DNA of 64,000 nt from assembly GCA_019044685.2 (NCBI GenBank), contig JAGTXX020000006.1, forward strand, positions 1,569,501-1,633,500. Reading direction: 5' to 3'. Position 1 is the stretch's first letter. Every line of letters starts with the position of its first letter. The DNA is from Nannochloris sp. 'desiccata' (lineage: Eukaryota > Chlorophyta > Trebouxiophyceae > Chlorellales > Chlorellaceae). Shown piece after piece: positions 4,717-20,678 of the stretch. The position numbers were made by a program, and so were the translations under genes. Under the pieces are notes generated by a model. It saw only the letters and a list, made by a program, of their open reading frames with translations. It had not been told where the DNA came from and searched no databases.

Positions 4717-5622
4717 ATGCTAACTACTATCGCTCGCAAATTTGGAAGTAGAGCTGGTCTTTTTGGTGGCGCAGCAGCATTGGCGCTTGCGTCTGCCTCA
4801 TTTGACACAGCGGCCCATCTCTCAGTCACCGCTCAGGAACCACTTGATGCAGAACACTGGCGTGGTCTGAAGCTTCTTTCCCAGGAGCAACTCACTGGTG
4901 GTGATCGTCCAACCCATCTTTTACGTTTTGAGCTTCCCGCTAGCCAACAGCCTTTGCCTGTTGCGAGCGCTTTACTAATCCGTCTTCCAGTCGGTAAAGA
5001 GAAAGAGGATGGCACCCGGGCTTGGGTTTTACGTCCCTATACCCCTGTATCTGCCTCTGATGCTAAAACCCTCGATTTGGCGTTAAAAATCTACCCAGAT
5101 GGCAAATTAACACCTCACTTGATCAAACTTAAGCCAGGCGATGTTTTAGATTTCAAGGGCCCTCTTCCCAAGATTGCTTTGAGCGAACTTGAAAAGCGTA
5201 AATCCATCGGTATGATTGCCGGCGGTACAGGTATTACACCAATGTTGCAGGTGGCATCTGAACTGCTCCGCAATAAGTACTCTGGTAAAATTAATTTGAT
5301 TTATGCGAATGTGTCCCCGTCAGATATTATGTTGAGGGACAGATTAGACGCTTTAGTGAAAGCTCATCCTAATTTCAGTGTATATTACGTTGTGGATAAG
5401 GCTGAGAAAGGGTGGACAGGCGGTGTGGGGTACGTTACGGCAGAGATGCTCAAAGAAAATATGCCTACGCCGTCAAACGACTCTATGGTGTTGGTATGTG
5501 GCCCTCCAGGAATGATGAAAATCATCTCTGGAGAAAAAGTATCACCTAAGGAGCAAGGGCCTTTGGCTGGACTGTTGAAGGATAAATTGGGATATACTGA
5601 GGCTCAAGTTTATAAATTTTAA
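4717..5622 (+). CDS. NADH-cytochrome b5 reductase
   Basis: A single exon of 301 aa. It is a flavoprotein oxidoreductase that passes electrons from NADH via FAD to cytochrome b5 (fatty-acid desaturation, sterol and nitrate-related redox). Visible motifs are the FAD-binding RPYTPVS at 106-112, the NAD(P)-binding GGTGITP at 169-175, the CGPPGM motif at 261-266 and the family's terminal Phe. An N-terminal basic stretch followed by an Ala-rich hydrophobic segment (residues 8-30) suggests a mitochondrial membrane-anchored form. The chosen ATG is the first in frame and puts this targeting segment at the N-terminus. Membership is firm; the exact compartment is inferred. Confidence 0.92.
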   Translation: MLTTIARKFGSRAGLFGGAAALALASASFDTAAHLSVTAQEPLDAEHWRGLKLLSQEQLTGGDRPTHLLRFELPASQQPLPVASALLIRLPVGKEKEDGTRAWVLRPYTPVSASDAKTLDLALKIYPDGKLTPHLIKLKPGDVLDFKGPLPKIALSELEKRKSIGMIAGGTGITPMLQVASELLRNKYSGKINLIYANVSPSDIMLRDRLDALVKAHPNFSVYYVVDKAEKGWTGGVGYVTAEMLKENMPTPSNDSMVLVCGPPGMMKIISGEKVSPKEQGPLAGLLKDKLGYTEAQVYKF

Positions 5623-10054: not shown

Positions 10055-12985
10055 TCACTTGCTAGCAGCAGCAGCAGTTTCTATTTCATCCAATGCTTGG
10101 CTACATCGCTGCAATAATCCACCTAGACTTCTATTGCTGGCAGTTTCTCTCAAAACCACATCCCTCAATAGCTCCCGTTTGGCCATTCCAAGAACACGAG
10201 GAACCCATGCACCAGAGTGTCCTTGTGCACCATCTTCGAGATCATTTGACCCAGGGGGAGGTCCTAATAAAGAGTCTGCCAATTCTCGTAACCTCTCTTC
10301 ATCTCCTGTCTCGGCCAGGCTACGAGCATACGTACCCAACCATGCTTTATATTCGTTGACCGACCCCAGCATCTCTGCTGCCATGAGATTGCATTCCGCA
10401 ACACCTCTCGCAAGTCGTTGCTGTGCAAGCGTCGCTGCTGCGCCACTGCCACCAACAAGACGAGCAGCAGGACGTCCCATGCCGCTCAACGCGTCAGCTT
10501 GGACGTCGGCCAGTTCACCTTGCCCGGGAACACGAGGCATGGGGGCAAATCGAGAGGTCGCGAATGAATCATCAACTACTCGAATCCAGGTACGTAATTT
10601 AGTGTGCCAAATATATGCATTGGCATCAGTCAGCGTCACTATAGGTACACAAGCACTGCTTGTGTTAGGTCTAGCATCACCATTATCACCACCGTCACTG
10701 CTGCTCCGTTGAGAGAGTTGGACATCTAAGACACCAGCTCCTCCTTCCAATAACGGTGCCAACTCCGCTTCCATAATCTCTTCTAGAGATACTGCATCGT
10801 AAAGTTTAATACGGCCAGAGGTACTTACTACGAGTAATCTGGTACCACTGCTCGTCATCAATGCGATACCTGCCCCAACTCTGAGAGGCGGTGCTGCTCT
10901 GCGTCCAGCAGGGGTGTGCAGTTGAACATGGCCGTCAGAAGTAGCGATGGCTGAGAAGAAAGGAGTGCCTGCTGCAGCGACAACAGCACCGGGAATCACA
11001 TCATGCCATTTGGGGGTGTCACCCTGGACTAGGCAAACTTCTGCATAGGCGCCTGCACGGCCATTGTCTTTATTAACAATTTGAAGTTCGTGAATGACTG
11101 GTGCAGATGCATCTTTACCACCGACACGTTTCTTATTGCCTATTGAAGGGATCAAAGGGGGCAGAGCGCCTAGGACGACTCTGTGTGAAGAGAAAGGACG
11201 GAGAGCCGCCAGTCTCAGAGCAGCCGCAACGGCGGTGGTGGGCAGGGCACCTTCGGCAGCTGCTGGGACGACTGCTGCTGCTGCTGCTGCTGCTCTAGCT
11301 TCGACTTCAAGACGAGGACGTTTCACACCCTGATTATTGACTGTAGCCAGTGCTCCTGCAGCTCCTACTGAAGAAGAAGGAGGCGACATTGTTTGTTCAA
11401 ATGCACCCCGTTTCCCCCCTGCAGCAGCAGCTTCTTGAACTGCCCCAAAGCCAGTCTGTGTGACAGCTCCAGTAGCTGCTGGGCCACCACCTAATCTCGC
11501 AGCAAGCGCTGCTAAAGGATCTGCACCTCCTCCTCCAACAGCAGCAACAGGAGCAGCTACAGCAACAGGTGGGAGGGGAGGTTTTCCTGCTGCCTGCTGC
11601 TGCTGCCTTTGCACCTGTTGTTGTTGTTGCTGCTGTTGCTGTCCTGCTACAGGAGCAAGCGCTGGTCTTGAACCATTCACCTTCTCTTCAAGCTCCAATT
11701 GCTCTGCACTCTCTGCAAATACCCTCTTTTGAGCCCTTCCCGTACTCGATCCGTAGAGCGCCTTCATAACCTCGCTCATATCCTCTGTTGTTGCTACCTC
11801 TCCAAGCTCACTTTTTTCAAACTGTAAACACGCCACAGTCCCATCTGAGGAACTCGCAAATAATGACATTCCATCTGGAGTCCATGCTAAATCTAGAACT
11901 TGACTTTTAAACATCCTTGAACCACAGAAAATTGGCCGGTTTGCAGAAGAAGCCCAGACAGTGACCCGTTTATCTTGTCCTCCAATAGCAAAGACAGCAC
12001 TGAGTTCTTCAGAAGGAGTTCCTCCGCCTAAAGGGGGCACTTTAAACAGCTTTGGATTAAAAGCAGTTGCTACAACAGCACCGCCATGGCCACTAACAAG
12101 TAAATAATCTTCTGGTTTGTCCCAGGATTCACGTGGTACTGCCACCGCAGCATGCGTAGCACCCTGGAAACTGTTCCCGGCAAGTAAAAACCGACCATCG
12201 GGGGACCAGCTTAATCTACAAGCAAAGGTAGCAGTGACCATCCGCTCAAACGGAGCGCTGATGGTGGCGACTAAAGACCAATCGTCAGTTCTCCATACTG
12301 CAACCGATCGATCCTCAGACATCGTCGCCAGATAGGTACCTACTGGATCCCATGCTACGCCTTTTACAAAGGACGTGTGTGCACGGAGGGTAGCTAGACG
12401 TGAGCCAGTAGCAGCGTCCCAAATTCCAACTGTTGAATCTAAGCTAGCAGTTGCAATGCGTGTATCGTCATGCGACCAGCCTAGATCTACTATATGGGAG
12501 CTATGGCCACGTAATATATGACGGGTACGCCAATTTTCTATGTTGGATTCCCCGCCAAGGACACCCCCACCTGCACCTGAACGCAGCTCAAAAATGCAGC
12601 CGATACCATCATCCGAGCCAGAAGCGAGATATTTGCCGGAAAAAGAGAATCTTACGACGTTGACCGGTCCATTGTGATCGGTCATTGTGGCGAGAAGTTT
12701 ATGGACCGAGGTGTTGTTCTCTTGGCGGGCGTCAAGGGCTGGGAGTAAGCTCCAGAACTTGACTTTGTGATCTGCACCGCCGGTGGCGAAGCGGGAGCCG
12801 TTCGGGTGGACATGGAGAGAGAAAATAGGATCCCCTGCGAGCAGTATCAAGAATAAGAGTCGTCAGATGAAGACTTCACAGTTGATTTGGAGTTCACAAA
12901 TGGAAAGAATAAAGAGCTCGTTAAGTGATCGATCACAATTGAACTCACCTCGGTGGGAGCACCACGGCAATTTATCAATTAACAT
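10055..12985 (-). CDS. HIRA: HIRA histone H3.3 chaperone
   Basis: A 37-nt first exon (12949-12985) and a long second exon (10055-12834), 938 aa. The short exon supplies a start segment (MLIDKLPWCSHRG) that runs directly into the DPIFSLHVHPNG core, matching the start of plant and animal HIRA. Residues 1-360 form a WD40 propeller with clear blade motifs (GGADHKVKFW, LDSTVGIWD, SEDRSVAVW). A low-complexity linker follows with a Gln tract near residue 400 and Ala tracts. The C-terminal part (about 580-760) is the HIRA domain. HIRA deposits H3.3-H4 independently of replication. The downstream reading frame is open to the stop. Its promoter side faces the KDZ transposon, whose insertion separates it from the MYND gene. 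Confidence 0.93.
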
Positions 12986-13270
12986 GATCGATGAGCTAGA
13001 AGTAAGCTTTATTATTGAATATCCATAGACGCTTGGCTTTAAAATGAAGAAATTCTCCTTTTCATTTTTTGCTGATCGCACACCGAGTTTTGATGAGCTT
13101 TACACACAAATAAAATCAGCGTAATTTCTGCTCAAGATTATGGAGTTACGTATTGTGCAGACTTTATTTGTTGTTAGCCAGCAAGGTGACCGAAAATGAT
13201 AGAGATTCTTTTGAACTTGGTGGAGCTCACTCAATACCCTACATTTCCACTCCCTCCTAGACCTTTTTTT

Positions 13271-13379
13271 CAGGTAAGTCACCCGATTAGAATAGCCGCT
13301 TCCCGGCTATCGAGAATAGCCATTTTAGAAACTCGGAAAAGCCTTTAAGCCAGGAACAGCCATTTTACGCACAGTTTTT
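13271..13379 (+). repeat. Left terminal inverted repeat of KDZ element
   Basis: 109 bases matching the reverse complement of 20098-20206 with three mismatches (left positions 13304, 13315 and 13362). It contains a potential hairpin (atagccg at 13292-13298, cggctat at 13304-13310) that could be a transposase binding site. Confidence 0.95.
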
Positions 13380-13414
13380 TGCATATAACCTTTTAAAATA
13401 CATTTCTAAACATA

Positions 13415-16400
13415 ATGGATAGCCTTGCAGCGCTGGAGATGGCGGAATTAACAGAAGAGCAAATTAGGAGGATTGAACAAGAAGTTGAGGATGAAGAAGA
13501 GCCTGATGCCGAAGAGGAAGCAAAATCGACAGGGGTTCCTCTTTCTCAGATCATATACAAGAAGGCCATCAGGTTGCGCAACCGAGCAAGGGACTTTGCT
13601 AAGAATTATAGAAACTGCAACATGGTTTTCATGGTTGGGAGTGCTTTTCGAGCTGCTCATTGGCATGTAGCCGATCTCCGTCAGATCAGCAACGATCCTG
13701 TGTGGGAAATTGCTTTGAGGGATTTTATTCAGGAATCCTTCCGTGAAAAAGATCGCAATCCAAGTGCACAGTTCATCGTTCCTGATGGCTCGAATTGCGA
13801 TCCAGAGGACCACAGCAAGGCCCTCAGCTTGGCTGTGGAAGAAGGGATATTCTCCCGCAAACAGTATGAGCTATTTTCCGGCATACTGCAGAAATTGAGG
13901 AAAAAGAGAGGTGCACCACTATTCAAACACTTCCTGCATTGATCTTGATCTCCGCTGCTCCCAGTTGTTAACTCGTCCCAGTGCCCCAATGTGCAGAGAA
14001 AAAAGCAAAGTTAAAGAACAGAAGGAAGCTTCCTGTTTCTTCTAATCAAGCCGGTCGTCCAGTCGCATCAAGAATGCAAGGAGAAGAAGACTTGTTATTT
14101 TCAGCTGATGGCGGCGAGAAAACTGGTATTGATGGAGGTATGTACCTAATTTATCATAGCTCGTGCACTACTATCACACAGTAACGTATTCGTTTATTTG
14201 TTTTGTTGTGATTTCTTGGAAACTTAATGCATAATTTTACTATTCTATGTTGCAGAGGAAGAAGGAGATTGTGCAACTTCTCCGGTAAGAGGTCCTCGCC
14301 CCCGCAGGGGCCAGGCACCACAGCTGGACCTCCAATCTGGTGAAGAAGCTGATGCTCTAGGTGAACAACAACCGGATTCAGCTGGAAACATTCCCTCGGA
14401 GCTTTTGAATGGGGGGCAAACTGGACACGAAATTGTTGCTGCAGCAGCAGTTGGAGATGTTGCCGAGAAAGACGCCAATGCCGTGGCAGCTCAGCCTACA
14501 GCAACTGGGCCAGTTGCTGAGGCCGGAGAGCATCCAGGTACAGAGAGTATGCTCCTAGCAAATCCATCTTCTGCCACTGTGATTACTACTGTGGGTATTG
14601 CTAGCGTTGCTGCGCCAGAAATGGCTGAAGCAGCTGGGTTACAAGAGCCAGCAGTCGCCGCTGCCCCTGCTGTGCCTGGTCCAAGTGCCCCTGTTGCAAC
14701 AACCAGGGCTGGACGAGAACAAAAGTAAGTTGTTCACATTAAATTTTTAATGTATTGCAGAGATTTGTTTTATTATGCCTTTCAACTTTCATTACTAATG
14801 CACTTTTCTATTTAAATTAATTTCTGCAGGCCAAACAGTAGGTACAATGATTTCGCCGCTGAAGTTGAAGAGCAACCCATTGCTAAGAAGCAAAAGTAGG
14901 AAAAGTATTGTATGCCTTTGATTTTATTGTATGTTGGCTATTGCACTAGCTGTACATGGCTGTAGCATCTCTAATTTAGTCTTCTCTAATTAATTTCTTT
15001 TTTTTGTGTAGGGTTCCTGCGCCAACCACGAGGAAAGAAAAATTGACCGATGAAGAGGTATGAATTCTTAGTATTTCCTTTTTGTTGTTGTTGTTGTGTT
15101 TCGTTACATAGGCTGTACTACCTATTTCCTGGCCTGGTGCACGTTTCCAGCTATTTTTATTGATTTTTATTTTCCACCTAATCTCTCCCATCCCCCGCTC
15201 CACCCCCCTTTGAGAGGCTCGGAAGGGTGGTGGTGTTAAAATTGAAGATCATAATTTCCCCTGAAACTTGGTGCCTAGGGGTTTTCGAGGGTGCTGAGTT
15301 TGCCTGTCTTGTTGTTTTTTCCTTTCTAGGCTGTTTTAGTCAAATAGTGGTGGTGGCGGCGGGATGCTCTTTTCTCGCTCTACCTCGGTATTTGCTTTTT
15401 GCCCGTTTTCAGCTTCGTTTTTTGTTACTACTACCTTTTACTATCTATTTCCTGGCTTGGTGCACGTTTCCAGCTATTTTTATTGATTTTTATTTTCCAC
15501 CTAATCTCTCCCATCCCCCGCTCCACCCCCCTTTGAGAGGCTCGGAAGGGTGGTGGTGTTAAAATTGAAGATCATAATTTCCCCTGAAACTTGGTGCCTA
15601 GGGGTTTTCGAGGGTGCTGAGTTTGCCTGTCTTGTTGTTTTTTCCTTTCTAGGCTGTTTTAGTCAAATAGTGGTGGTGGCGGCGGGATGCTCTTTTCTCG
15701 CTCTACCTCGGTATTTGCTTTTTGCCCGTTTTCAGCTTCGGTTTTTGTTACTACTACCTTTTACTATCTATCGCCTGGCCTGGTGCACGTTTCCAGCTAT
15801 TTTTATTGATTTTTATTTTCCACCTAATCTCTCCCATCCCGCACTCATGCTCATGATAAGTTGGTTGTTGCTTTGAAACATTTCTTTCTTTTCAACAGAG
15901 TTACTCATTCATGGTATTCCCTTCTTTTTGCCTGCAGAATGAACAATTGAAGAAATTTATTCTAGAGGCGCACGAGGAGAAGTCTAAAGCAACAAAAAAC
16001 GCCTCAGGGTACCGGCTCCTCGCCCGAACCAAGATGTTCAATGCCTACGCTACCGATCCTGAGCATCTTGCCCGTATCAAACGCGTGCTGCATACCGATC
16101 AAACAATCACCACTAAGGTGGAAAGCTTCTTTGGTAATGAAGGCACTGCTAGTGAGTACTCCAGGCAACACTTGCTGTTTCTTTTCTCTTCCCATCGCTC
16201 CTTCTTTTGCTAACTATTATTTGTACCTTCATTGTACCTTCACTTGTCTCTTGCAGGTTTCCCACACGTCAAGGAAGCTGCAGAGGCTAATAAAAAAGAA
16301 GAAGAAGAGGAAGCAGCTAAAGCTCAAGAGAAGAATGCGATTGGTTGCTTTGGCGCCCCTGGGCATGGCCAGACGGGAGTTGAATTGTTGAGTTGGATAT

Positions 16401-16603
16401 CTAAATTCAAAAATGCTTTCATGGAGAATACCAGCGAAAATGAATTCAAATTTAGACCTGGGGTGGAAGAGGCTCAAGTGCACGCTTTGGCGGATAGGGT
16501 AGACATGTGGATCGCGAACCACAAGAGTCCAAGCTATCTTCCCAGCTTTAAAAATTTCAAAGCAGACCTCCATTTAGCTTTCCAGGAAACTTTTGCCTCT
16601 TAA
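13415..16603 (+). CDS. Unknown cargo protein of the KDZ transposon (592 aa)
   Basis: I do not recognise this protein. Seven inferred exons, all phase-consistent: 13415-13910, 13997-14137, 14256-14724, 14830-14895, 15012-15057, 15938-16151 and 16257-16603. The N-terminus (1-60) is acidic (a DEEEPDAEEEA stretch). Residues 60-165 are a compact helical region with hydrophobic and Trp/Tyr positions (SAFRAAHWHVADLRQI). Residues 210-400 are Ala/Glu/Pro-rich low complexity with two short Lys-Arg patches suggestive of nuclear localisation. The C-terminal 190 residues are again compact, ending in a YLPSFKNFKADLHLAFQ segment. I see no catalytic motif, zinc finger or the HxD..H of TET/JBP oxygenases, which accompany some KDZ elements. 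The donor of intron 1 (GTGCAC) is weak, so that junction is the least sure. Its place inside the TIRs, facing the transposase, makes it an element-encoded accessory protein. Confidence 0.7.
15122..15842 (+). repeat. Tandem duplication, 323-bp period, in cargo-gene intron
   Basis: Two nearly identical 323-base units (about 15122-15444 and 15445-15767) plus a third partial copy of about 75 bases to 15842, all inside the 880-nt intron 15058-15937. The unit opens with a cctggcctggtgcacg sequence and holds a C-rich and a GTGGTGG-rich segment. It also creates duplicated open frames that lack ATG starts and are treated as noise. Confidence 0.92.
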
Positions 16604-16904
16604 CATATTGAAATTCTATTTATAACCATTAAATTAAGGTTTTCAATTTATCAAGAGGGATTTTAGCACCGTTAAAGTAGCTTTATAGCACTGTAAAGTC
16701 AAAGAATAGTGAAATATGTTTGAGAAACTCAGAAATGACTCACGTCCGCTGGTGAGTAGCTACATTTGCTTTTGTTTCGCCTTGCAAATCTGCATTTGTC
16801 ACGTAAAGTATTTAATTTCAAGTATCCAAGTGATTTATTCAAGTATTACAAGTCTAAAGACAAGTTAATAGTCATTAAAAGGAAAATCAAGCAAGAAAAA
16901 ATAG
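16604..16904. other. Spacer between convergent KDZ genes
   Basis: An AT-rich stretch between the cargo stop codon and the end of the transposase tail frame. I see no gene in it; it probably holds the polyadenylation signals of both genes. Confidence 0.4.
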
Positions 16905-19900
16905 TTACACAGGAGACAGTTTGCATTTTAACCGCTCTGTCGTCTCATTATGAATACACATTAAGCGGCTTTGCTCAATCGAATGCACAGCCAATTTCCC
17001 TTTCATAATACGGATCATTCTGTTATTTTCATATTTATCCTTGACTGGGACAGTATCCGACCTGTTGGCTTCGTTCTTTGCATCTATTTTAGATGTAAAC
17101 CACTCCAGTTTAGAGGCGACCAACTCTCGCCTCTCCTCGCACCAATTAAAAAGACGCACAACTTCCTTCTTTAACATCTCTACCTCTTCCACTGTACGCT
17201 GCAATTGATTTTGGCGGCGTGGTAGCGCAGGGCAAAGTGTCTTTGGGCAGACTCGCTGCCATTGGCCCCTGCCGGCAAGGTGCCACCATCTCCCTCCGGC
17301 CGGTTCCATGGGAAATTGCGGTTAAAAGCATCCTCTAACCGCTGAGCCGTCAAAGTGGTTCTCGGTGTGTCAGTTCCATAGGCTTCCCAAGTAAAATAAA
17401 ACTTCAACAATTCTCCAATGTTCTTTCCCATACTAGTTAAACGGACATTAGCTTTTTTGGCATTGTGACCGCTCTCAACACGAGGCATATTTTTTATCAA
17501 TACCGCTCTTTTGAATACCTGATTTTCAACGAGGAGAGCATATTCTTGCATAAAATGCTTGCTTAGCTCTTGTAAGGCAACCCTGTACTCTTGGCTATCC
17601 ACTGCCCAATCTGTCCCAAGCGGCAAGCCTAGCTGTGCCTGATATGTTGCCTTGAGACGCTTCAATCTCTGCTTTTTAGTATCGTCAGTGACAGCACCAT
17701 GCGCATGTATATCTGTGTTCCTGGGCATCAACAGTGGATACATACCTTTATCTTCATCCATATTATCCAATGAACGCAGCTTCAGCAGCACTTCAACATA
17801 TTTTGCACCGACACTCAAAGCAGCAGCAGGGGCCGTAGTGGAGGAGTCCAAGAATGGCAAAGCAGCCTCAAGGTCTTTAACCCCATGGGTTGCTGCTCAG
17901 CTTTCAAGTTAAAGATATCATTTTTAAATTCGTCTGCATGAGACAGCAAGTGTGGAGGAAGAAAGTCAGAAAAGCAAAATCAACAAAAAAATAAAATAAA
18001 AAACCTGACGGCAGCAGAAAATCTAAAAGCACATCAGAAACGGCAAAGATGCGAAATACTCACCAACTTTTGTGTCTATTCTTGCTATTCGATCTGCCAG
18101 CATGGCAGGGAAACGCTCCTGCTTGCGCAGAGAGAGCAACCAAAGAAGACAGTTGTAATTATCCCACCAATGAGCACGCGTCATGTACCTGGCAATCTTG
18201 AAAAAAGGCTTAATTTCTGACCACAGAACTTCAGTTTGTTCCCCAACCCTTCTACCAACTCCTGCTGCATAAAGTGCACTATACACTAGCTGACATGCAT
18301 GATTATGGTCAAAAGCATGCATCATAGGTAACAACATGTTAATGTCGTCAGCAGAAATTGGGAAGATGTCTTCCTTACTTAATTTATCAATCAATGCCTT
18401 GAAACGTCCACGATAGCGGCACATCAAGTCCAGGTACACATCCTTGGTATCGGGTCTGGTACGTAATAAGTATTCCAGAAGTACATCATAGTAGTGGTGG
18501 TTCTCGGGCGTTGTCATTGGAATACAACACCCCAAGCCAGGAAATATGTGAGGGCATACGATAGCTACAGTTCCCACGATGTCCATTTCACCGCGCTTCT
18601 GTTTTATGGATTCTCTGTTGCAGTGGAGCGCTGTAGTACATGGCCCCTCCTCTCCAGCAGCAGCAGCGGCAGCGGCTTTAGCACCTCTTTCAGCATTTTT
18701 AGCCAGAGCACCAGACTCGGTTTCATCCATAATCTGCTGAGCAGCCTCCCCCAAAAACAAGGACGTCGTAGGCTTAATGCCATTTTGCCTTCTCCCAGCA
18801 GCGGCGAACCTATCAGCAGCATTCATAGCATCTGTCATGACGCTCAGGCGGACAGGTGGAACAGGGGTGCCTACAAAAAGAAAAAGGGCGATCAAGGAAG
18901 AGAAGTAAACGACCAATATATATTAACTGCATGTTATTATGTTTATAGGGTTGGAAGAACACGTGGACAGCTGAATTGCAGTTCAATGTAGACTAGTTAA
19001 ATGTTTGCAGAAACACTCACCATCAGTTAATGCTTCTCTATTGCTCTTGGAACAAGTTGGGCAGTACGCAAACGGGTCTTGACCAACTAATTTCATTTCA
19101 TGGGCCTTGTGTTCTACTTTCCAAGCCTCCAAATCGGCAGTTATGAGCTGTGCTGGCTTGAGGGTGCAAGAAATGAGGGATCCGTCGTCGGCCGTGAATG
19201 TACTACCTTGAGGGTCAAATCTCCTATCGCTGTTACTCAGAGCATGAACAAACGCTGCATGGATTGAATGAAAAATGCTTAGGATAGGGTAATGTAAAGT
19301 AAAGCTCAGTCATTTTAAAATAATCAGCAAATAAAAAGTTAATCTCCAACAAGGTGGGGGCGTTGGATTACGGAAGGGTTATTTAGGGTAAGAAGCTTAC
19401 CATTAGCAGATAGGCCATTGTTCTTATGCAGATCCCGGAAAAAATGCACTACAGATCTCCTTATCCATGTTTGACAGTGCTCAGTTGCAGTAGTAGGAAC
19501 ACAGTCCACTGCGTAGGGGTGAACAGTGACTCTCATTTTGCATTGGCGGCATTGGTAAACTGGAATCTTTAAAGCGCAGTGATGGTCAAAATCCACGACA
19601 ATAACTACATTATGCCCGCCCGATAATAAACAATTTTCTCCTTCACCACAATTGGTGAGAAGGCAACAAGGGTGGTCCCTGCAAGCATTTTCGAAGGCTT
19701 GCTCAACTCTCGATTGATGATCTTCTGCGTGCGATTTATTTATGGTAACCGTGTGCTGTGCTGCCTCCGCGAACTGTATCAAGTATTCATCTATATTTGC
19801 GTCACGTCTATCATCGAAATCTTTCGCCTCCCTCGTAATTCTTTCCAAATAATCTCTGTTGCCAGCGGTCTTCTGCGTCTTGGGCTTTGTCTGGCTGCCC

Positions 19901-20013
19901 TGAGACACGCCGTAGGACCTTTTGGTGCCATTTCGAGCACCTGGAGGTGCTTGATGAGGCCTTGCAGCCCTCCTCTCTGGAGCCCTGTCCTCGCCCAATT
20001 CAAATCCCACCAC
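16905..20013 (-). CDS. KDZ (Kyakuja-Dileera-Zisupton) transposase, probably damaged
   Basis: Inferred exons 19401-20013, 19021-19254, 18064-18870 and 17180-17892 give about 788 aa in one frame. Exon 1 holds an N-terminal cysteine cluster (CRQC motif and spaced Cys/His). A CPTC knuckle is followed by the first catalytic Asp in MTDAMN (codon 18830-18832). An AIVCPHIFPG stretch precedes the second Asp in YLDLMCRYRGRF (codon 18428-18430). The DHNHACQLVY motif precedes the GEQTEVLW box, with the putative catalytic Glu near 18230-18241. These are the RNase H-fold signatures of KDZ transposases. Oddities: no in-frame ATG at the 5' end (the open frame starts at a GTG) and a frame change near 17180-17210, after which another frame carries a plausible coiled-coil tail to 16905. 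Either an unseen splice or a frameshift is responsible. No repaired product is assumed. Confidence 0.85.
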
Positions 20014-20097
20014 TCAACCAACAGCGCAAGTTGGCCAACTCTGGCAGTTTGAGGCCTTTAAATTAGATGTAACATGTCTAAATGAATGAATGATATT

Positions 20098-20206
20098 AAA
20101 AACTGTGCGTAAAACGGCTGTTCCTGGCTTAAAGGCTTTTCCGAGTTTCTAAAATGGCTATCCTCGATAGCCTGGAAGCGGCTATTCTAATCGGGTGACT
20201 TACCTG
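20098..20206 (-). repeat. Right terminal inverted repeat of KDZ element
   Basis: The inverted partner of 13271-13379, 106 of 109 positions identical. The transposase open frame begins about 85 bases inward, so this TIR probably includes its promoter. Confidence 0.95.
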
Positions 20207-20678
20207 TTTTTTTTTTTTTTTCCACTCCCGGAAGCCAAATTATGAAATACCCTACATACCCTAATACCCTACATACCTACACACCCTACACACCCTACAT
20301 ACCCTACATACAAAATATGCCCTAATACACTACAAAATATACCCTAATACCCTACATAGAAAATATGTAGCCCCGCAGGCGGGAGTGGAAAATTTGCTAC
20401 GAGGGAGTGGAAAAATATGCTGCCTCACTCAGTGACTGAGCAAGATTTAAATTGTTGACAAAATTACCGGTTGTCCAACTCCACGGTGCCTTTTACTAAT
20501 AATTGTAAACAGTGAAACCTGTAAACTAGAATCAACAAAAGTGCAGACGCAATTGTTCATCCAGTTGGGTGATTGCCGTAAGATAGATTCCTGAGCCTCA
20601 ACAATTCAAGACCGTTTGGCATTTATTTTAAGCCTTCTATACTCAACTAGCCTCTGTTATAGAGTTGGGTTTCGGAAA
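20207..20678. other. Transposon flank with ACCCTACAT repeats and inverted GGGAGTGGAAA motifs
   Basis: T15 at the transposon junction is followed by an imperfect short-period array of ACCCTACAT/ACCCTAAT words (about 20248-20360). Inverted copies of a tttccactccc motif surround it (about 20219-20229 against 20381-20391, and 13244-13256 on the other side of the transposon against gagggagtggaaa at 20401-20413). The remaining 250 bases are the upstream region of the MYND gene. Confidence 0.7.

Follow-up and report, generated by a model that had tools for sequence, protein, structure and literature searches.

A recently mobile KDZ transposon family of the green alga Nannochloris sp. 'desiccata' with insertions in its own terminal inverted repeats

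The window analyzed here, a 64,000-bp stretch of contig JAGTXX020000006.1 of the green alga Nannochloris sp. 'desiccata' (Trebouxiophyceae), contains at positions 13271-20206 a KDZ DNA transposon of 6,936 bp, which is bounded by terminal inverted repeats (TIRs) and harbors a transposase gene and a second gene, termed gene 2. Comparison with the whole genome (21.55 Mb, 18 contigs) indicates that the element belongs to a cut-and-paste family that appears to have moved very recently and that is, by sequence, a new member of the KDZ superfamily. The main novelty lies outside the coordinates covered by an earlier note on this DNA: copies of the family have inserted into TIRs of the family itself, more than once. 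The account that probably explains the whole set of observations is that of a recent cut-and-paste transposon, producing 7-bp target site duplications (TSDs), inserting into its own TIRs and forming unstable dimers that give rise to foldback elements. The loci examined are the window element, the pairs at C15:1701627-1715505 and C10:299213-310941, the element at C12:98796-100580, and two elements of 1.6 kb at C15:1095103 and C15:163269.

The two TIRs of the window element (13271-13379 and 20098-20206) are 109 nt long and identical at 106 of 109 positions (97% complementary), the three mismatches being located at TIR positions 34, 45 and 92. The transposase gene (- strand) and gene 2 (+ strand) face inward between them. 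The earlier note had described these matched repeats, the length and the two inward-facing genes, and had placed the element in a green alga and assigned it to KDZ; these statements are confirmed, the last by a match of positions 18023-18916 (- strand) to the KDZ domain family PF18758 (E=1.2e-23, 84.4 bits against a cut-off of 26.6). It had also proposed to look for other copies sharing the terminus CAGGTAAGTCACCCG and to read the TSD from copies lying outside T tracts, and both have been found. A TIR query of the genome returned 19 matches including the window's own two, the others all being at further elements, and the 13-base end pattern with at most one mismatch matched the genome 30 times (17 exact) against 15 times for a reversed control pattern. 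The family comprises four further near-identical bodies, two of them partial, with 0-2 substitutions each: C15-A exhibits none over the 6,910 bp retained, C15-B one over 6,936 bp, and the C10 arms two over 5,134 bp and one over 6,544 bp. The window TSD is TTTTTTT within a T run, and the duplications outside T tracts are ATGATCA (C15 pair), TCAGCTC (C10 pair), AGGAAGT (the diverged C2 family) and TTTTATC (the diverged C15:2033101 family). The combination of TIRs with 7-8-bp duplications that characterizes the KDZ superfamily is hence present, with TIRs of 109 bp and, at this element and four more, duplications of 7 bp. The possibility, raised in the earlier note, that the TIRs arose from host DNA by local inverted duplication and that the element is immobile has been refuted by the occurrence of identical termini with target duplications at several unrelated places; nothing was found in its favor, and it can be given practically no credence.

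The C15:1701627-1715505 pair opens with 33 bp of TIR end, followed by a full element and then by a second element facing the first. It was modeled as an element inserted in opposite orientation into the transposase-side TIR of another, with a 7-bp duplication CGCTTCC (TIR bases 27-33). The model has nested 7-bp duplications and a length of 13,879 bp (2 x element + 7 bp), identical to that observed. Twenty-three bases differ between model and observation, all but one within the 26-bp centre, and when this centre is inverted a single base of the 13,879 differs, at the C15-B substitution. This agreement shows that the pair is, at the sequence level, an exact inverted dimer in which the 26 bp at the centre are turned round, a change that can arise when the arms recombine with each other. 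The maize 'double Ds' is an inverted nested dimer. In the C10:299213-310941 pair, the first 47 bp match the transposase-side TIR exactly (duplication CGAGGAT, TIR bases 41-47), and the inverted arms end at element positions 5,134 and 6,544, 4 bp apart; it is a self-inserted dimer whose centre has been deleted. One substitution common to both C10 arms is absent from the window element and from the C15 copies. This suggests sister copies as donor and target, one having inserted into the other.

Smaller elements complete the series. At C12:98796-100580, a 1,785-bp element with arms of 742 and 744 bp (99.7% alike) assembles two transposase-side halves head to head, with an asymmetric join (931 and 720 bp of element). 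It also exhibits TIR tails, of which the single left one contains a small insertion; two more lie on the right, and each of the three stops at the site corresponding to TIR bases 41-47. At C15:1095103, a 1,648-bp element with arms of 579 and 594 bp is formed of two gene-2-side halves, and its region is 99.4% identical, flanks included, to that of C15:163269 over 6,994 bp. At all three loci, long inverted arms make up most of the element, as in foldback elements. Identity to the window element is about 97.5% for C12 and 90-94% for C15:1095103, a divergence indicating older events. The three foldback loci, of two independent kinds, look like the end products of dimer decay, and the simplest history would run from self-insertion to inverted dimer, asymmetric loss of the centre and foldback element. 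The segments C15:160501-167500 and C15:1092501-1099500 are ~7 kb or more duplicated in inverted orientation on one contig, each carrying a KDZ-derived foldback element.

Could TIR tails and inverted dimers stem from recombination, replication slippage, template switching or an assembly artefact, without any transposition? The flip of the C15 centre and the C10 deletion are indeed rearrangements of inverted repeats, and the two identical right tails of C12 could result from unequal exchange. Such an origin is very improbable in view of the C15 composite, with its exact length, its nested duplications and its single departure from the model after the flip, and of the differences between C10 and C15 in both outer duplications and inner sites.

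The features of the window element on which the following paragraphs draw are these:

13264-13270, no strand: left TSD copy TTTTTTT, seven T adjoining the TIR; its size is ambiguous within the T run and 7 bp is taken from four other elements.
13271-13379, + strand: left TIR, on the gene-2 side, beginning CAGGTAAGTCACCCG; an inverted repeat, 106/109 against the right TIR.
13292-13321, + strand: ATAGCC / GGCTAT / ATAGCC cluster at left TIR bases 22-51, proposed transposase-binding repeats; positions match in both TIRs and in both C2-family TIRs, and binding is inferred.
13415-16603 (end approximate), + strand: gene 2, a multi-exon accessory gene; from open frames, with boundaries set by eye.
13415-13910, + strand: first exon of gene 2 (open frame to 13942); its first splice junction matches public gene model P0020.
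13997-14137, + strand: second exon of gene 2, set by eye from open frames.
15116-15846, + strand: tandem repeat of 323-bp period, two full copies and one partial, apparently in a gene 2 intron; from repeat families.
Within 15938-16603, + strand: last two exons of gene 2, from open frames, with relatives in both other KDZ families.
16905-20013, - strand: KDZ transposase gene of several exons, lacking the C2-family ATG and with two one-base frame breaks relative to C2; from alignment to the C2 element.
18064-18870, - strand: exon of the KDZ catalytic domain (limits by eye), matching PF18758, with the conserved D, D and E positions present.
19401-20013, - strand: first transposase exon, with a CxC3-like cysteine cluster (limit by eye) matching PF18804; its junction matches public gene model P0001.
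20098-20206, - strand: right TIR, on the transposase side; an inverted repeat, 106/109.
20156-20185, - strand: ATAGCC / GGCTAT / ATAGCC cluster at right TIR bases 22-51, in the gaps of which self-insertions of other copies sit; from TIR comparison.
20207-20213, no strand: right TSD copy TTTTTTT, the beginning of a 15-T run in the sequence.

A KDZ family search of the genome identified eight places: five of the window family, C2:366363, C15:2037866 and, under the cut-off, a weak match on C8. Two diverged KDZ families accompany that of the window, with one copy each (C2:365012-371557 and C15:2033101-2039969), and the TIR of each has two genome matches, both in its own element. All three families begin with CAGGTA, which resembles the core of a 5' splice site. 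The T-run insertion site places a pyrimidine tract ahead of the CAG of the window element (13271-13279). An exact CAGGTAAGTCACC is located at C15:2037026 (L069 4026) inside the element of the third family, away from its ends, and may be a chance occurrence or an old end fragment. The C2 element harbors a 67-bp direct repeat (L068 6356-6422 and 6681-6747).

The position of the self-insertions within the TIR is the feature that calls for explanation. Two of five full-length-family insertions are clearly nested within the TIR of another copy (bases 27-33 and 41-47). The TIR words of the window family are ATAGCC (22-27), GGCTAT (35-40) and ATAGCC (46-51), and each of the two gaps between them holds a self-insertion, which extends into a repeat by one base in one case and by two in the other. 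At the same three places the C2 family exhibits ATAGCT, AGCTAT and ATAGCT: the three repeats have changed in concert with their strand sense kept, as expected of a protein-binding repeat. The chance of at least two of five insertions falling in the family's TIRs amounts to 2.6e-8, a post hoc value assuming uniform targets, five elements and independent events.

Several steps may account for this pattern. A transposase, supplied by an intact copy elsewhere or by a related family, would bind the ATAGCC/GGCTAT repeats; an incoming transposition complex would be drawn to any TIR on which transposase already sits; copies of the same element, perhaps those on sister chromatids, would in this way become targets; and the long inverted dimers, being unstable, would lose their centre and leave foldback elements with both ends derived from one side. 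Gene 2 would act as a conserved helper. That transposase on resident TIR repeats captures the incoming complex, the family homing onto itself and its inverted dimers decaying into foldbacks, is proposed tentatively, at somewhat less than an even chance, the TIR-directed self-targeting being inferred from few events. A competing explanation is local hopping, in which the element moves a short distance, or onto the sister chromatid, while DNA is being replicated and strikes itself simply because it is close, TIRs not being preferred. The substitution common to the C10 arms and absent from the window and C15 copies speaks in its favor, as do the precedents for self-insertion in P-element constructs and, by citation, in maize elements (excerpts of PMC4744444). 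It does not readily explain why both clear self-insertions and the C12 tails fall within TIR bases 27-47, when the TIRs represent just 218 of the 6,936 bp of the element; local hopping is accordingly a possible but rather doubtful alternative.

Various observations weigh against the overall account, TIR-directed homing included. The events are few, two clear nested insertions, with others read only from the C12 TIR tails, which slippage could have multiplied; the inverted dimers are known from the assembly alone, and misassembly is possible. The substitution common to the C10 arms falls within the tandem repeat of 323-bp period, where the adjacent repeat copy has the same base, so gene conversion is possible there. 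The identity between C15:163269 and C15:1095103 runs into the flanks, from which it follows that these are one insertion copied by segmental duplication. No target duplication was found for this pair, nor a clean one at the outer right end of C12. The shorter TIR of the C15:2033101 family is devoid of the ATAGCC/GGCTAT words, and no self-insertion is seen in either single-copy family, with two TIR matches each. The transposase frame is broken in all copies of the window family, and no source of active enzyme turned up. Finally, no shared target motif was seen among the insertion sites. A palindrome-centred target preference, evaluated at seven sites against 20,000 random window positions, was not accepted: the C15 outer site ranks in the top 0.4%, the C10 outer and C10 inner sites at 7%, the C15 inner site at 24%, that of the C15:2033101 family at 84%, and those of the window and C2 at 99.7%.

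Besides the strong PF18758 match of the transposase gene, positions 19339-20013 (- strand) match the CxC3 cysteine cluster PF18804 weakly (E=1.5e-4, 22 bits, under the cut-off of 26.6). In a 16-sequence alignment, D163, H200 and D203 are invariant and D29, E226 and E229 nearly invariant, and all are kept in the window KDZ domain. The conserved acidic residues of this domain have a catalytic role. The domain matched none of 14 control genomes. A public protein search with the KDZ exon returned 17 relatives, 15 of them on contigs shorter than 9 kb, and an AlphaFold model of the exon had a mean predicted local distance difference test (pLDDT) score of 49.8, too poor for a structure search. In a scan of viral contigs with the KDZ alignment, 0 of 32 pattern matches were confirmed. 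A scan of prokaryote genomes confirmed one of 27, a 26-residue Methylosinus match that is regarded as due to chance. The ratio of nonsynonymous to synonymous substitution rates (dN/dS) between window and C2 transposase stretches ranges from 0.15 to 0.45, indicating that the gene was constrained through most of its history.

Relative to C2, the frame breaks sit between 17898/17897 and between 17214/17213. All five copies that carry the break sites have them in identical form; three copies retain the start region, and in these it is likewise the same. The earlier note had presented the element as complete and intact, which holds for its length and ends; autonomy is not supported, as the predicted gene possesses neither the start ATG of C2 nor an uninterrupted frame. 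Since copies sharing both breaks have moved recently, the transposase is probably supplied in trans, although a later splice acceptor might bypass the first break. Autonomy of the family, with a shortened but sufficient transposase made in spite of the breaks (through an upstream exon, a start other than ATG or alternative splicing), would agree with the open catalytic and cysteine-cluster exons and with the near identity of the copies, and an AG near 17889, identified by eye, could serve as the later acceptor. It is nonetheless unlikely: the second break closes the frame at 17180, short of the conserved tail of C2 (dN/dS 0.30, 94 codons), where the last transposase exon is open for 335 residues up to its stop, and public gene model P0001, from another strain label, stops a short way past the first break, its frame shifted.

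All three KDZ families hold at least part of gene 2, which is a recurring partner of KDZ in Nannochloris sp. 'desiccata'. Between the window and the C2 family, its first exon is 37% and its last exons 39% identical, with dN/dS of 0.47 and 0.34, respectively. In the C15:2033101 family, sequence comparison found a relative for the last exons alone (28-29% identity, oriented toward the KDZ gene) and none for the first exon. Another relative of these last exons is located at C8:232172-232510, near which the genome KDZ family search reported no KDZ match; it is possibly an element remnant or a gene adopted by the host. No Pfam family was matched at E<=0.1 by the three pieces of gene 2 scanned, the middle exons being outside the scan. 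The AlphaFold model of exon 1 is helical at low confidence (mean pLDDT 47.7) and too poor for a structure search. Public protein searches returned four relatives for exon 1 and one for the last stretch, the latter marked as the window's own protein.

Both neighbors of the element are ordinary host genes. To the left lies a HIRA-like WD40 gene on the - strand, with a frame starting near 12850, and to the right a MYND-finger gene on the + strand, from 20616. Positions 20239-20367, just right of the element, contain degenerate short repeats of the ATACCCTA type.

KDZ ranks among the transposase superfamilies that have been characterized in less detail, and this compact genome offers three related families with exact ends, 7-bp TSDs and a recurring second gene, along with an end-repeat cluster that has changed in concert between two of the three. 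A lone element, an exact dimer formed by self-insertion, a dimer with its centre deleted and foldback elements all occur within a single family; with this series at hand, both the origin of foldbacks and TIR-directed self-insertion become directly testable. The homing reading, if true, would provide a general route from full-length KDZ elements to short hairpin elements. Among the literature matches listed, no description of KDZ self-insertion was found, a weak negative, with most subscription journals outside the search.

The comparison with known systems draws on excerpts of the reports cited. Among the nearest known systems is the fungal KDZ lineage Kyakuja, which has 7-bp duplications and CA..TG ends, both also exhibited by the window family. 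Two Laccaria Kyakuja families lack TIRs and carry a TET/JBP gene (PMC12730594), whereas the window family has 109-bp TIRs and a second gene that differs as far as scanned, the lineage being compared by description and not by tree. The window family shares the KDZ transposase with Zisupton, Dileera and Cryptococcus KDZ1-3, and with the latter also long TIRs (139-241 bp in KDZ1-3; PMC12810828); the CxC-type cysteine cluster of KDZ1-3 may have a counterpart in the weak CxC3 match of the window gene. Duplications are of 8 bp in Zisupton and the Dileera family examined (PMC12730594) and of 4-8 bp in KDZ2/3 (PMC12810828), as compared to 7 bp in the five resolved Nannochloris cases. In Pristionchus Zisupton, TIRs are present and a duplication was not detected (PMC9297572). 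Fungal KDZ elements carry additional genes (PMC12730594, PMC12477816), and eight KDZ families with 148 intact copies are listed for Ectocarpus (PMC12477816). Together with the TIRs of Cryptococcus KDZ1-3, these reports indicate that the earlier note overstated the rarity of TIR-bounded KDZ elements.

Other algae harbor members of the superfamily: Chlamydomonas has Zisupton/Kyakuja KDZ elements (PMC8226300), an active 31.7-kb KDZ element of C. reinhardtii is cited in PMC12477816, and the giant KDZ elements of Ectocarpus carry nested insertions (PMC12477816). These nested insertions are described as unrelated transposable elements (PMC12477816), whereas those of Nannochloris belong to the same family and lie in TIRs. 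Insertion of a transposon into its own copy is reported for Drosophila P constructs and, by citation, as nested maize elements (PMC4744444). Those elements belong to other superfamilies, while in Nannochloris the insertions cluster in TIR repeats and one genome contains a series that leads from dimer to foldback. Tetris of Drosophila (PMC4079207) is of the foldback type, like the Nannochloris foldback loci; in contrast to Tetris, the two arms of each of the latter derive from one and the same half, transposase-side or gene-2-side, of a KDZ element present in the same genome.

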